This document shows positions 20,350-27,722 of a stretch of 64,000 bases of DNA, in pieces. Source of the DNA: Maricaulis sp. GTDB taxonomy: Bacteria > Pseudomonadota > Alphaproteobacteria > Caulobacterales > Maricaulaceae. The notes below the pieces were generated by a model. It did not search any database. It saw only the letters and a list, made by a program, of their open reading frames with translations, and had not been told where the DNA came from. Position numbers and translations under genes: made by a program. The stretch lies in NCBI RefSeq assembly GCF_015665295.1, contig NZ_JADFAJ010000007.1, positions 1 to 64,000 of the forward strand. The letters run 5' to 3'. How positions within the stretch are numbered: position 1 is the first letter of the stretch; the number at the start of each line of letters is the position of its first letter.

Positions 20350-23300
20350 GTGAGCGACACGACGACGACCGGCCTGTCGGAAATTGAGATGATCGCGGCC
20401 GTGCGGGGCCAGGCGACCGTATGCGGAGCGCCGGAAGGCCTGGATGCGCTCGTCTTCGCCGATACGGCGCGTCTGCGCGGCGGCGTGAACGTGTTTGTGG
20501 CGCGCGATGATTCCCGCGCCGCCGCCTTTGTATCCGCGCTGCAATTTTTCGCGCCGGATACTGAATTGCTGAGACTGCCGGCCTGGGACTGCCAGCCCTA
20601 TGACCGGATTTCGCCCAGCCCGCGGATCGCGGCGCGTCGTGCGGCAACCCTGGCGCGGCTGGCGTCTGCCGGCTTGCCGGATACGGTGCTGGTCGTCACC
20701 ACGGTCAATGCGATGGCCCAGCGCGTACCACCGCGTGCTGTCCTCGAGGGGGCCGGGATCGCCATTCGCCCGGGCGGAAGTGTCGAGCTCGACGCACTGA
20801 TCCGCCATTTCACGGTCAATGGCTATGCCCGCGCGACAACAGTGATGGAGCCCGGCGACTTCGCCGTGCGGGGCGGGGTTGTGGATGTCTATCCGCCGGG
20901 CGCCGCGGAACCGGTCCGGCTCGACTTTTTCGGCGACACGCTGGAATCGATCCGCGCCTTTGATCCGGAAACCCAACGCTCCCTGCGCCAGCTCAAGGCC
21001 GTGGACTTCACCCCGGTCAGTGAGGTCCTGCTGGATGAGGCGAGCATTTCGCGCTTCCGGTCTGGTTTCGTGAAGACGTTCGGCGCCGTGCGCGGCGGTG
21101 ATCCGGTCTATGAAGCGGTCAGCGCCGGCGCTCGTCCGGCCGGTGTCGAACACTGGATGCCGCTGTTCTACGAGCATCTCGACACGCCGTTCGACTATCT
21201 GCCCGACAACACGCTAATCGCGATTGACCATCTCGCCGATGAAGCGCTCGACGAACGTCTGAGCCAGGTTGCCGATTATTACGACGCGCGCATTGCGGCC
21301 GGTGAGAGCAAGCATGAATCGGCCCTGTCGGCACCGACCTATCGGGCCCTGCCGGCCAAGGCGCTCTATTTTGCCCCTCAGGACTGGGACAGGGCGCTGG
21401 GTGATCGACCCGTGCGCCGCTATACGGCTTTTCGCGATCCCGGCGCGCAGACCATCGATATTGCCGGCAAGCAGGGGCGGGGCTTTACCGCCGAGCGCGC
21501 CGCCGAGAACACCAATGTGTTCGACGCTGTGGCCTCGCACATCAAAGCCCTGACCGGCGCCGGCAAGACCGTCATGCTGGCCTCCTGGACCGGCGGTGCC
21601 TCGGAGCGACTGGCCAGCGTCCTGCAGGATCACGGCCTGGCGCGGATCCCGCTTCTGGAAAGCTGGTCCGACGTGGCCTCTGGCGGCAAGGGCGGTGTGT
21701 GCCGCGCCGTGCTGCCACTGGAACGCGGCTTCGAGACCGAGACCCTGGCCGTAATTTCCGAGCAGGACATTCTCGGTGACCGGCTGGCGCGACCACGCAA
21801 GAAGCGCAAGTCAGCCGATATCATCGTCGAGGCCGGCGCCCTGTCACCCGGCGACCTCGTCATCCATGTGGACCATGGTCTCGGACGGTTTATCGGCCTG
21901 AAAACCCTGCCGGTGCAGGATGCGCCGCACGATTGTATCGAGCTGGAATATGCCGGCCAGGCCAAGCTCTATCTGCCGGTCGAGAATATCGAGCTCCTGT
22001 CGCGCTATGGCGCCGAGTCGGAGACAGCGCAGCTTGACAAGCTGGGCGGTGTGGCGTGGCAGGCCCGCAAGGCAAAAGCCAAGAAGCGGCTTCGCGACAT
22101 GGCTGACCAGCTCATCAAGATCGCGGCTCAGCGGCTGGCGCGCACGGCCGAGCCAATCGAGCCGGCATCGGGCGTATTCGACGAATTCTGTGCGGCCTTC
22201 CCCTATCCCGAAACAGATGATCAGCTCAACGCGATCGACGATGTCCTGACCGATCTGGGCAAGGGACGCCCCATGGACCGGCTGATTTGCGGCGATGTCG
22301 GCTTTGGCAAGACCGAGGTCGCGCTGCGGGCCGCCTTCGTGGTGGCCATGAGTGGTCAGCAGGTGGCCATCGTCGCACCGACGACCCTGCTGGCCCGGCA
22401 GCACTTCAAGACGTTCAGCGACCGTTTCCGCGGCTGGCCGGTCAAGGTGCGCCTGTTGTCGCGCCTGGTCTCGGCCAAGGAAGCCAAGGCCACGCGCGAC
22501 GAGCTCGCGGCCGGCAAGGTCGAGATTGTCATCGGTACGCATGCGCTGCTGGCGAAGACCGTGAAATTCTCCGATCTCGGCCTTCTGGTCGTCGACGAGG
22601 AGCAGCATTTCGGAGTCAAGCACAAGGAAAGGCTGAAGGAATTGCGCTCCGACGTGCACGTCCTGACGCTGACTGCGACGCCGATCCCGCGCACGCTGCA
22701 GCTCGCTCTCACGGGTATTCGTGACCTCTCCATCATCGCCACGCCGCCGGTCGACCGCCTGGCCGTGCGCACCTATGTCGCGCCCTTTGATCCGGTCAGC
22801 GTGCGCGAAGCCCTGCTGCGCGAGAAATACCGCGGCGGACAGGCCTTTTTCGTGGTGCCGCGGATCACCGATCTGGACGAGACCGTGACCTTCCTGCGCG
22901 AGAGTGTGCCCGAGGTGAGTTTCGTGTCGGCACACGGCCAGATGGCGGCCTCGCAGCTCGAGGACATCATGACCGCCTTCTATGAGGGCCGGTATGACGT
23001 CCTGCTTTCGACCACGATCGTGGAATCCGGGATCGACATTCCCACCGCCAACACGCTGATCGTCCACCGGGCCGACCGGTTCGGCCTGTCGCAGCTCTAC
23101 CAGCTGCGCGGGCGGGTCGGGCGCTCCAAGACGCGCGCCTATGCCTATCTGACAACCCCGATGCGCCAGAAGATCACCGACAGCGCTGAAAAGCGGCTCA
23201 AGGTCATGCAATCGCTCGACTCGCTCGGCGCCGGTTTCACCCTGGCCTCGCATGATCTCGATCTGCGCGGCGGTGGCAATCTTCTCGGCGAGGAACAGTC

Positions 23301-23865
23301 AGGCCATATCAGGGATGTCGGGGTCGAACTCTACCAGTCCATGCTGGAAGAGGCGGTCGCCTCGCTGCGCTCCGGCGGCGATGAGAGCGAGGAGGGCGAC
23401 TGGTCGCCGCAAATCAATGCCGGCGCCGCCGTCCTCATTCCCGATTATTATGTCGCGGATCTCGATGTTCGCCTGCAGCTTTATCGCCGCCTGTCCTCGC
23501 TCGACGAAAAGGCCGAGCGTGAAGGCTATGCCGCGGAGCTGATCGACCGCTTCGGCCCGCTTCCCGGTGAGGTCGAGACACTGCTTCGCGTCGTGGCCGT
23601 CAAGGCATTGTGCAAGAAGGCCGGTATCGAGAAGGTCGATGCCGGGCCCAAGGGCGCGGTCATCCATTTCCGCAATGACCGTTTTGCCGATCCAGCTGGG
23701 CTCATCGCCCACATCTCGGCCAATCCGGCGCTGTTCAAGGTCCGTCCCGACCACAAGCTGGTGCTGCGCGCCGAATGGGACGAGCCGGAAGACCGTCTGC
23801 GGGCCATCGAGCGCGCCATGGCGCCGCTGGCTGACCTGGCGATAAAGGCAAGGGCGGCGAGTTGA
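20350..23865 (+). CDS. mfd: Transcription-repair coupling factor
   Basis: 1171 aa; CarD-like RID 'GDLVIHVDHGLGRFIGL', helicase motifs 'GDVGFGKTEVA' and 'DEEQHFGVKHKE', TRCF domain. Confidence 0.97.
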   Translation: MSDTTTTGLSEIEMIAAVRGQATVCGAPEGLDALVFADTARLRGGVNVFVARDDSRAAAFVSALQFFAPDTELLRLPAWDCQPYDRISPSPRIAARRAATLARLASAGLPDTVLVVTTVNAMAQRVPPRAVLEGAGIAIRPGGSVELDALIRHFTVNGYARATTVMEPGDFAVRGGVVDVYPPGAAEPVRLDFFGDTLESIRAFDPETQRSLRQLKAVDFTPVSEVLLDEASISRFRSGFVKTFGAVRGGDPVYEAVSAGARPAGVEHWMPLFYEHLDTPFDYLPDNTLIAIDHLADEALDERLSQVADYYDARIAAGESKHESALSAPTYRALPAKALYFAPQDWDRALGDRPVRRYTAFRDPGAQTIDIAGKQGRGFTAERAAENTNVFDAVASHIKALTGAGKTVMLASWTGGASERLASVLQDHGLARIPLLESWSDVASGGKGGVCRAVLPLERGFETETLAVISEQDILGDRLARPRKKRKSADIIVEAGALSPGDLVIHVDHGLGRFIGLKTLPVQDAPHDCIELEYAGQAKLYLPVENIELLSRYGAESETAQLDKLGGVAWQARKAKAKKRLRDMADQLIKIAAQRLARTAEPIEPASGVFDEFCAAFPYPETDDQLNAIDDVLTDLGKGRPMDRLICGDVGFGKTEVALRAAFVVAMSGQQVAIVAPTTLLARQHFKTFSDRFRGWPVKVRLLSRLVSAKEAKATRDELAAGKVEIVIGTHALLAKTVKFSDLGLLVVDEEQHFGVKHKERLKELRSDVHVLTLTATPIPRTLQLALTGIRDLSIIATPPVDRLAVRTYVAPFDPVSVREALLREKYRGGQAFFVVPRITDLDETVTFLRESVPEVSFVSAHGQMAASQLEDIMTAFYEGRYDVLLSTTIVESGIDIPTANTLIVHRADRFGLSQLYQLRGRVGRSKTRAYAYLTTPMRQKITDSAEKRLKVMQSLDSLGAGFTLASHDLDLRGGGNLLGEEQSGHIRDVGVELYQSMLEEAVASLRSGGDESEEGDWSPQINAGAAVLIPDYYVADLDVRLQLYRRLSSLDEKAEREGYAAELIDRFGPLPGEVETLLRVVAVKALCKKAGIEKVDAGPKGAVIHFRNDRFADPAGLIAHISANPALFKVRPDHKLVLRAEWDEPEDRLRAIERAMAPLADLAIKARAAS

Positions 23866-24041: not shown

Positions 24042-25358
24042 TCAGGCGCTGGCGATAATCGGTCTGGGCCGGACCAGACTGCGCAAAGCGCGTTCCACCA
24101 ACGCTTCGGCGGTTTCCCCGGGGCGGGTCTGAATCGGTGCGGCGCGCACGCTGAGCCGGAAGGGTCGCAGCGGATCATCGCTTTCGAATGCGGTGCATTC
24201 GGCAATCGCCGCGACACGGGCCGCCACGCAGTCAATCCCGACCGGGTCGGTGAAGGGCAGGACGGCGAGGAAAACATCTTCCTCGAACCGTGCCGCCGCA
24301 TCTTCGGTGCGCAGCAGATGACGCAGCATGGCCGCGAATTGGCGCCGGGCCTTTTCCGCGGATACCTCATCGGGCCGCTCATGTCCTTCCGGCAGCAAGG
24401 TCTGCAAGGCAATCAGCGAGAAATTGAGCTCGTCACGGCCGGCCGCGTTGAGCAGGTCCTGGATGTGCGAAACCAGATAGGCGGAATGAAAGAGCCCGGT
24501 TTCGATATCCAGCGAGCGGGTGTCGCGGCAGGATTCAAGGATCGCCTTTGCCTCGCGCCGGCGACGACGTTCCGCGGTCAGCGTCAGCACGCGTTCGCGC
24601 AATTCCCCGTCCTCGGTGCGCGGCGGCAGGAGGTCGGAGACGCCGCGCGCAAAGGCTTCTTCAGCCGCCCCGGGGTCGACCTCATCGGTCAGCAACAGCA
24701 CGGGCGTGTGGTAGAGCCGCGCATTGCGGCGCATGGCGGACGAGATCGTGAAGGCGATATCGCGCTTGCCCGAGGCATTCAGCACCACGGCGTCGAAGGC
24801 ACGCTCGTGCAGATAGTCAAAGGCGGAATAGGACGAGAAGGCGGCAATCACGTCGGCATTCACCGCGGCGAGCGTGTGCTGCAGCGCCATGAAGCGCGGC
24901 GAGGCATCACCGACATAAAGAACGCAAGGCGGCTGGTCGTGCCGTTCCACAAGACCCGGTTTCTGACCGTAAAGCATGCTGACCTCGGTGCGCCGCCGCG
25001 CCATGATTTCCATGGTGTGCAGGCGGAAGAGGGCGCGGATGCGGGCGGCGACCTGGACGGCCGGAGCAGGCTCGCGGACCCAGGCATCGACCTGGTCGGT
25101 GGGGCCAAAGCTGTCGGGTCCGACGACGAGAAGCGGTCTTTCGCCCGGTGCAAACCGATCAAAAGCCCTGATGCCGTCTTCGACATCGCGATCACTTTCG
25201 GCGAGTATGACGGCGACCGCCCAGTAATGGTGGCGGCGGGCAGGCGGGCTGTCCGCGCGGACGAGACGGCAATTCAGCGCGAGGCGCCCGAGCTTTTCAG
25301 CCAAGGCTTCCACACGATCGGACAATCCGAATACAAGGACGTCGAGTTCGCGTCCCAT
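24042..25358 (-). CDS. PopA/PleD-like protein: two degenerate REC domains and a degenerate GGDEF with intact I-site
   Basis: GGEEF position reads EEDVF; I-site position reads RTED; REC2 acceptor position reads AVVLN (no Asp). Start MGRELDVL at 25358. Confidence 0.75.
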   Translation of the reverse strand: MGRELDVLVFGLSDRVEALAEKLGRLALNCRLVRADSPPARRHHYWAVAVILAESDRDVEDGIRAFDRFAPGERPLLVVGPDSFGPTDQVDAWVREPAPAVQVAARIRALFRLHTMEIMARRRTEVSMLYGQKPGLVERHDQPPCVLYVGDASPRFMALQHTLAAVNADVIAAFSSYSAFDYLHERAFDAVVLNASGKRDIAFTISSAMRRNARLYHTPVLLLTDEVDPGAAEEAFARGVSDLLPPRTEDGELRERVLTLTAERRRRREAKAILESCRDTRSLDIETGLFHSAYLVSHIQDLLNAAGRDELNFSLIALQTLLPEGHERPDEVSAEKARRQFAAMLRHLLRTEDAAARFEEDVFLAVLPFTDPVGIDCVAARVAAIAECTAFESDDPLRPFRLSVRAAPIQTRPGETAEALVERALRSLVRPRPIIASA

Positions 25359-25453
25359 TCGTCCCCCAGCCATTGCCCCCGGTCCTCCGGTATTTCGCGA
25401 GTTTGTCACAAGTGCCACGCTTTCAAAACAATCGATTCGAGAGGTGAAGTCCC

Positions 25454-26545
25454 ATGAAAGCCCAAGGTCCTCTAAAAGGCGTTAAAGTGCTGGAGTTTGT
25501 CGGCCTGGGTCCGGCGCCTTTTTGCGCCATGATGCTGTCGGATATGGGCGCGGACGTGGTCCGGATCGACCGGCCGGGCGCGCATGGCGGCGGTGCCCAT
25601 GATGTGATGGCGCGCGGACGGCGCTCGATCGCACTCAATCTCAAGGACGAGGCCGAGCTCGAGACGGCCCGACAACTCATCGCTTCGGCCGACATAGTGC
25701 TGGAAGGCTATCGCCCCGGTGTCATGGAGCGTCTGGGCCTGGGACCGGACATCGCATTGAACCGCAATCCGGCGCTGGTCTATGGCCGCATGACGGGATG
25801 GGGGCAATTCGGCCCACTGGCCCATGCTGCCGGTCATGACCTCAACTATATCGCCCTGACCGGCGCCCTCGGCGCGATCGGGGATGCAGAGAAGCCGGCC
25901 ATTCCGCTCAATCTTGTCGGCGATTTCGGCGGGGGCGCCATGTATCTCGGCTTTGGTGTGCTGGCGGCCCTGCATCATGCCCGTGCGACGGGTGAGGGCC
26001 AGGTCGTCGACGCCGCCATTGTCGATGGCGCGACCTCATTGATGGCCTCGCAACACCAGCTGGCAGCCTTTGGCCTCTGGTCGCCCAGGCGCGGCACCAA
26101 TCTGCTCGACGGCGCCGCGCATTTCTACACGGTCTATGAATGCGCTGATGGCGGCTTTGTCTCGGTCGGCCCTCTGGAGCCGGAATTCTATGCCCTGTTG
26201 TGCGAAAAGACCGGCTTCGATGGTGAGGCCTGGCCGGCCGACTGGAGCGGCAAGGGCTGGCCGGAGGCCAAGGCGGCCCTGGCGGCCCTGTTCCGCAGTC
26301 AGTCACGGGCGCATTGGTGTGACTTGCTGGAAGGCACGGATGCCTGTTTCGCGCCGGTCCTCGATTATGAAGAATCGGCCCGCCATCCGCACATGGTCGA
26401 GCGCGGCGTCTATGTCGAGCTGGACGGGGTGAGGCAGGCGGCTCCCGCGCCGCGGTTCTCGCGCACGCCCGGTGCGATCCAGGGAGCCGCACCGAAACCG
26501 GGAGCGGATCGCGAGGCGGTCCTGGCCGACTGGCTCGACGCGTGA
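25454..26545 (+). CDS. CaiB/BaiF CoA-transferase family (alpha-methylacyl-CoA racemase-like)
   Basis: '[36 protein letters not shown]', '[13 protein letters not shown]', '[11 protein letters not shown]'. Confidence 0.93.
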
Positions 26546-26561: not shown

Positions 26562-27722
26562 CTAGCTGCGGGCGTGGCTTGTATCGATACCGTCTGTCTT
26601 CGCCCTGGACAGGTCGCAGGCGCGCAGGTCGGCAAAGCGCAGGCGCGCCTTTGACAGGTTGGCCGCTAGCTCGCGTCCGCCACCGAGTGTGAGCGGGTCG
26701 AGGCACGCGCCGCGCAGGTCCGCATGGGAGAGATCGGCGCCGGACAGGTCGGCGCCGCGCAGGTCCGCCTCGCGCAGATCACAGCGCCGCAGATCAGCGC
26801 CCACGAGGCGGGCGCCCTGAAGCTCGGCGCCGCGCATGTCGAGCCCCGAAAAATTGGCTCGGACCGCTTGCAGCGCGGTCAGCGGGGCTGCCGCGAGCGG
26901 TTCCACAGTGCGAAGGTCGAGGCCGTCCAGCCTTGCCGGACTGCCGTCCTTGCCGCTGGTGCGGACCCGCTTGATGTGGTCATCAATGCGCTGTTGTGGG
27001 GTTCTATGGTCAGTGTCGGCCGGCAAGTCCGGCAAATCGGGCGGATCGGGAAGGGGACCGGTGCGCATGCCCTTGGTCGTCGCCATGCTCAGATCGGCAT
27101 CGGCGGCCATGGTCCCGCGCAGGTCTGCATCGCTCAGATTGGCGCTGCCGAAACCTGTCGCCGTCATCAGAGCGCCGGCAAAGTTCGCCCCTTCCAGGTC
27201 AGCGCGATTGAAGCGCGTGCCGGCAAGGCTGGTTTCATCGAATTTCGCGCCCCGCGCGCTCACCCCTGCGAGACGCGCATTGTCGAGGACGGACCCGGAC
27301 AGGCTCGCGCCATCAAGACAGGTCGGCTGGCTGCTTGCCGCCGAGTGCTCGGATCCGGAACGCGCCAGTTCGCGAAAATCAGCGCCTTCGCAATGGCTGG
27401 CGCTGAGATCGGCGCCGCTGAAATCGCAGCCGCGCAGATCGGCACCCTCGAGCCGGCACCGGACCAGCCGCCCGTCATTCAACCGGGCTCCGGCGAGGCG
27501 GGCGCCGCGCAGGTCAGCGCCTTCCAGGTCACATCCGCTCATGATGCAGTCTCTCAGGTCCGCATCGCGCAGGTTTCGCGCCACCATCGACAGCCCGGCC
27601 AGGGACTGGCCGTTCAGGCGTGCAAGCTGGCCACCGGGCTGCCCGTCGAGCAGCCGAGCATGGGCCTCGCAGATCCGGTCGAGCGTGATCTGGTCGATGG
27701 AAGAGGCGGCGGTCTGGGGCAA
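26562..27722 (-). CDS. Pentapeptide-repeat protein (two repeat blocks)
   Basis: Many A(D/N)LxG repeats in two blocks separated by a 'PDPPDLPDLPADTDHRTPQQRIDDHIKRVRTSG' linker. Confidence 0.9.
   Translation of the reverse strand: MPQTAASSIDQITLDRICEAHARLLDGQPGGQLARLNGQSLAGLSMVARNLRDADLRDCIMSGCDLEGADLRGARLAGARLNDGRLVRCRLEGADLRGCDFSGADLSASHCEGADFRELARSGSEHSAASSQPTCLDGASLSGSVLDNARLAGVSARGAKFDETSLAGTRFNRADLEGANFAGALMTATGFGSANLSDADLRGTMAADADLSMATTKGMRTGPLPDPPDLPDLPADTDHRTPQQRIDDHIKRVRTSGKDGSPARLDGLDLRTVEPLAAAPLTALQAVRANFSGLDMRGAELQGARLVGADLRRCDLREADLRGADLSGADLSHADLRGACLDPLTLGGGRELAANLSKARLRFADLRACDLSRAKTDGIDTSHARS

Follow-up and report, generated by a model that had tools for sequence, protein, structure and literature searches.

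In Caulobacter, c-di-GMP-bound PopA dimerises, reaches the cell pole and, together with RcdA and CpdR, hands CtrA and other clients to ClpXP (PMC3764195, PMC8973945, PMC7083601, PMC11519897). RcdA binding has been reported for the N-terminal part of the protein, and the monomeric, c-di-GMP-free form has an effect, with SmrF, on flagellar filament length (PMC8973945). A PopA clade that carries the I-site and lacks the GGDEF signature has already been drawn (PMC10333796), and PopA homologues outside Caulobacter have already been published, as in Hyphomonas neptunium, where HNE_1984, annotated popA, was identified as homologous to C. crescentus PopA through reciprocal best hits (PMC7200025). CtrA of H. 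neptunium is nevertheless stable and is not degraded, although popA (HNE_1984), rcdA and cpdR are all present (PMC7200025).

Two further proteins invite comparison. C. crescentus PleD (PDB 1w25, 2v0n, 2wb4, 9g85, 9g86) shares the REC-REC-GGDEF order and the three I-site residues with the protein described here, but it is an active cyclase with a GGEEF signature and a phosphorylatable REC1, neither of which is found in our protein, and it belongs to a clade of its own. PelD of Pseudomonas aeruginosa also senses c-di-GMP through the RxxD motif of a degenerate GGDEF domain (PMC10333796); however, it is a membrane GAF-GGDEF protein concerned with exopolysaccharide production, and its origin is separate.

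The gene analysed here lies in a 64,000-nucleotide stretch of Maricaulis sp. DNA, referred to as the window. It adds a member with lineage-specific differences to the known PopA homologues and extends the PopA-type c-di-GMP effector to a lineage beyond Caulobacter, with sequence evidence over five families. Seen alongside the stability of CtrA in Hyphomonas, it poses a testable question, namely what role PopA plays where CtrA escapes degradation.

Gene and domain architecture

The popA orthologue occupies positions 24042..25358 of the minus strand and encodes 438 amino acids, from an ATG at 25358 to a stop at 24042. The full open reading frame (24042-25418, minus strand) is a 458-residue frame with a GTG start, but comparison with genus relatives showed that ATG 25358 and its AGGGGG Shine-Dalgarno sequence are both conserved throughout the genus, making this the best-supported start; the longer version beginning with GTG at 25418 was rejected because the codons upstream of ATG 25358 are not conserved across the genus. 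The reading frame is real and syntenic. It is under purifying selection, with whole-gene dN/dS of ~0.05-0.26 in pairs with genus relatives, values that are rough because synonymous sites are near saturation, and in the more distant genus pairs REC1 and the linker tend to be the least constrained. The popA gene of one genus member (L022, G004:C14) has a run of N within REC1, which is probably an assembly gap rather than a broken gene.

Pfam returned weak response-regulator and weak GGDEF matches, each under the curated cut-off, and NCBIfam a PleD match (1e-22) far under its cut-off; with the AlphaFold2 model, these searches confirmed the order REC-REC-GGDEF. All features lie on the minus strand. 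The REC1-like domain (25065..25358, residues 1-98) is followed by the REC1 alpha-5 helix and linker (24936..25064, residues 99-141), in which R112 and R123, equivalent to PleD R121 and R132, are invariant. The REC2-like domain (24573..24935, residues 142-262) is the most conserved of the domains (HERxFDAVVLNA), and the degenerate GGDEF domain spans 24069..24572 (residues 263-430). As had been noted in the initial annotation, the acceptor Asp is absent from both REC1 (VILAES) and REC2 (VVLNASG). REC2 of C. crescentus PleD likewise has no acceptor Asp, whereas the REC1 Asp is retained in Caulobacter PopA and lost in the window's genus.

Orthology and genomic context

The window protein and the PopA of a C. 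vibrioides-type genome (G339) are reciprocal best hits, with 34% identity over 362 aa (2e-54). When that PopA was used as query against the window's genome, the next-best match, among the top PleD- and GGDEF-like loci of that genome, scored 1e-9, some 43 orders of magnitude behind. Numbered from its TTG start, the G339 protein carries the I-site Arg at position 357 and an Asp in REC1 at position 55, in line with the published numbering of Caulobacter PopA. In two genomes of family f3 the encoded PleD shows 100% identity with the C. crescentus PleD of the PDB across 331 aa, and f3 is therefore equated with the Caulobacteraceae. A phylogeny with PopA and PleD, one of the checks suggested initially, gathered PleD in a single clade at 100/100 and left the window protein outside it, with PopA, while the deeper branching order among the long branches is uncertain.

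Genomic context is similarly conserved. The convergent neighbour of popA in the window is mfd, encoding the transcription-repair coupling factor (20350..23865, plus strand), a marker of the popA locus in four of the five families, and its divergent neighbour, often conserved beside popA, encodes a Family III CoA-transferase (25454..26545, plus strand). In the window's own family (f1) and in f2, f3 and f5 (Parvularculaceae), popA is convergent with mfd and adjoins it or lies very near, and its other flank is often occupied by the same CoA-transferase; in family f4, mfd was not seen in the stretches examined. Also near popA, at 26562-27722 on the minus strand, is a gene for a pentapeptide-repeat protein in which eight stretches of repeats were matched and for which no curated NCBIfam family scored above cut-off.

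The initial suggestion that this protein might be the equivalent of PopA is thus borne out, as the reciprocal best hits, the conserved gene neighbourhood, the tree, the modelled fold and the unvarying I-site triad all agree, and on these comparisons the gene is classed as a PopA orthologue that falls outside the PleD clade. PopA of C. crescentus/vibrioides (CC1842, CCNA_01918) resembles it in domain order, in the mfd and CoA-transferase neighbourhood, in loss of the GGDEF signature, in the RxxD motif with a third Arg and in the PleD fold. It differs in REC1, which in the window protein cannot be aligned to it by BLAST, has lost its acceptor Asp and is modelled without helix alpha-2. With 25% identity (8e-14), HNE_1984 is less similar to Caulobacter PopA than the window protein.

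The I-site and the catalytic site

A phmmer search of the PDB aligned RTEDAAARFEEDVF of the window protein opposite RAIDLPCRYGGEEF of PleD, placing RTED opposite RAID and FEEDVF opposite YGGEEF. This agrees with the earlier alignment by eye, according to which RxxD is kept at the correct I-site spacing and GGEEF is lost. The primary I-site, R350-T-E-D353, is encoded at 24300..24311 and the degenerate signature EEDVF, which replaces GGEEF, at 24270..24284. To this can be added a third I-site residue, R381 (24216..24218), equivalent to PleD R390, since the initial annotation had named RxxD alone. R350, D353 and R381 correspond to PleD R359, D362 and R390, the I-site residues of the GGDEF domain in the PleD structure. 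Another RTED, at residues 247-250, is not the I-site.

The three residues did not vary in any of 106 orthologues (106/106), which were drawn from 61 relatives together with two additional families, irrespective of the state of the I-site and among which overall identity drops to ~16%. In the 91-row alignment only 6 of the 438 columns are invariant, and three of these are the I-site triad; by simple counting, under a random draw, the chance of the triad falling within six invariant columns is ~1.4e-6. The positions equivalent to PleD D327, N335, D344, G368, G369 and E371, meanwhile, are Q, E, E, E, E and V. As the triad is invariant while the catalytic positions are lost, catalysis appears to be gone and the allosteric site to be held under absolute constraint. 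Two residues of REC2 that assist c-di-GMP binding in PleD, R148 and R178, are not retained in the window protein, and PleD orthologues also vary there.

Predicted structure and divergence of REC1

The AlphaFold2 model, built from 91 sequences (pLDDT 91.8, pTM 0.90), adopts the PleD fold. This was another of the checks proposed at the outset, and the best PDB matches of the model were c-di-GMP-bound PleD structures (1.8e-21). Over the whole chain, TM scores against PleD structures were ~0.5 and the rmsd was large, as would be expected were the domains oriented differently; single GGDEF domains reached 0.7-0.8 (normalised by target). A model of the C. vibrioides-type PopA gave the same outcome in the structure search. 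In the Caulobacter PopA model helix alpha-2 is formed (residues 37-46), whereas in the window protein there is none between the second and third strands (residues 34-47).

The N-terminal domain also stands apart in sequence. Mean identity between the window's genus and the Caulobacteraceae is 18% for REC1, 26% for the alpha-5 helix and linker, 44% for REC2 and 29% for GGDEF, and REC1 could not be aligned by BLAST to residues 1-72 of Caulobacter PopA. These comparisons point to drift in the putative adaptor-contact domain as against absolute constraint on the ligand site.

CtrA, RcdA and CpdR

The window's genome encodes an RcdA family member (9e-57) and a CpdR-like protein with 71% identity to a CpdR query. 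CtrA in five genus members (L215, at G000:C4:76341-77024, L210, L211, L214 and L217) ends in -KASA or -KAAS, whereas C. vibrioides CtrA ends in Ala-Ala. The CtrA of family f2 still ends in -AA, so the tail alone cannot account for CtrA stability. H. neptunium appears to belong to f2, a different and more distant family, as the published figures for its PopA (25% identity, 80% coverage, 8e-14) and CtrA (76%; PMC7200025) fit f2 and not f1.

In several family f2 genomes (e.g. G122, G143, G045, G135 and G130) the PopA profile finds only PleD, and popA seems to have been lost there. The RcdA family (DUF1465) is present in all of them; RcdA was kept in all genomes tested, and no signal of co-loss of PopA and RcdA was found. 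With RcdA retained in such f2 genera, PopA seems to be the dispensable layer.

Proposed function and alternatives

Taken as a whole, the evidence makes it highly probable that the window gene is a PopA orthologue descended from a PleD-like diguanylate cyclase, that catalysis and phosphorylation were lost while the allosteric c-di-GMP site was retained, and that the product is a c-di-GMP-gated polar adaptor. As c-di-GMP rises, the ligand would be bound in the degenerate GGDEF domain by R350, D353 and R381, and binding would bring about dimerisation or a rearrangement of the domains; the ligand-bound form would then be recruited to the cell pole, where clients would be presented to adaptor-primed ClpXP. 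Binding of c-di-GMP by these three residues is very likely, given the precedent of Caulobacter PopA and the presence of genes for RcdA and a CpdR-like protein, and polar localisation and adaptor function, by analogy with Caulobacter, are most likely. That CtrA is a client in the window's organism is less certain, and caution over CtrA proteolysis is warranted because REC1 has diverged, the CtrA C-terminus is altered and CtrA is stable in Hyphomonas.

The shared domain order, and the fact that PleD is the closest solved structure, might suggest a PleD paralogue or an active or conditionally active diguanylate cyclase. This was rejected and is exceedingly improbable, as every catalytic position checked is lost, a separate true PleD is encoded elsewhere in the window's genome (G000:C10:91340-92686) and the tree splits the two clades at 100/100. 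It is also very unlikely that RxxD is a remnant of the parent cyclase in a protein that has lost ligand binding: the absence of the PleD REC2 residues R148 and R178 would be in keeping with such decay, but relaxed evolution would not yield a triad that accounts for half of the six columns invariant across 91 diverse sequences.

A more serious competitor to CtrA delivery, possible but on balance rather doubtful, is that the PopA of this genus binds c-di-GMP without being coupled to CtrA proteolysis and acts instead through another client or in a c-di-GMP-free polar role such as flagellum control. The diverged REC1 modelled without alpha-2, the change of the CtrA C-terminus to -ASA or -AAS and the stability of H. 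neptunium CtrA despite popA, rcdA and cpdR (PMC7200025) all point this way, as do the presence of RcdA in f2 genera that lack PopA, by which the two are separable, and the c-di-GMP-free role of PopA with SmrF in filament length (PMC8973945). Against this, the window's genome has genes for both RcdA and a CpdR-like protein, -ASA and -AAS may remain recognisable by ClpX, and the family of H. neptunium appears to be a different and more distant one whose CtrA ends in -AA, so that the tail is no predictor of stability. A fuller version, in which PopA has been rewired in the genus, with I-site sensing kept, REC1 remodelled, CtrA no longer delivered to ClpXP, other clients taken on and the promoter tied through GANTC to the CcrM/GcrA clock, is unlikely. 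The c-di-GMP-gated polar adaptor remains the preferred reading, with the identity of its clients as the less certain part.

Upstream region

A GANTC site, the CcrM methylation motif, lies at 25434..25438 (minus strand), within the 95-bp divergent intergenic region and 80 nt before the popA start codon; it could serve the CoA-transferase instead of popA. In 18 of 18 genus members it falls between -77 and -80 relative to that ATG, N alternating between A and T. GANTC is also enriched upstream of popA in the Caulobacteraceae (14/18) and in the rest of f1 (11/18), against ~0.2 sites expected from local density, counts that come from related sequences and hence are not independent; over-representation upstream of popA was not found in f2 or f5. 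A second conserved block, GTGGCA(C/T)TTGTGACAAACTC, lies upstream of popA at ~25397-25420 (minus strand) in most genus members and is a putative promoter or leader element.
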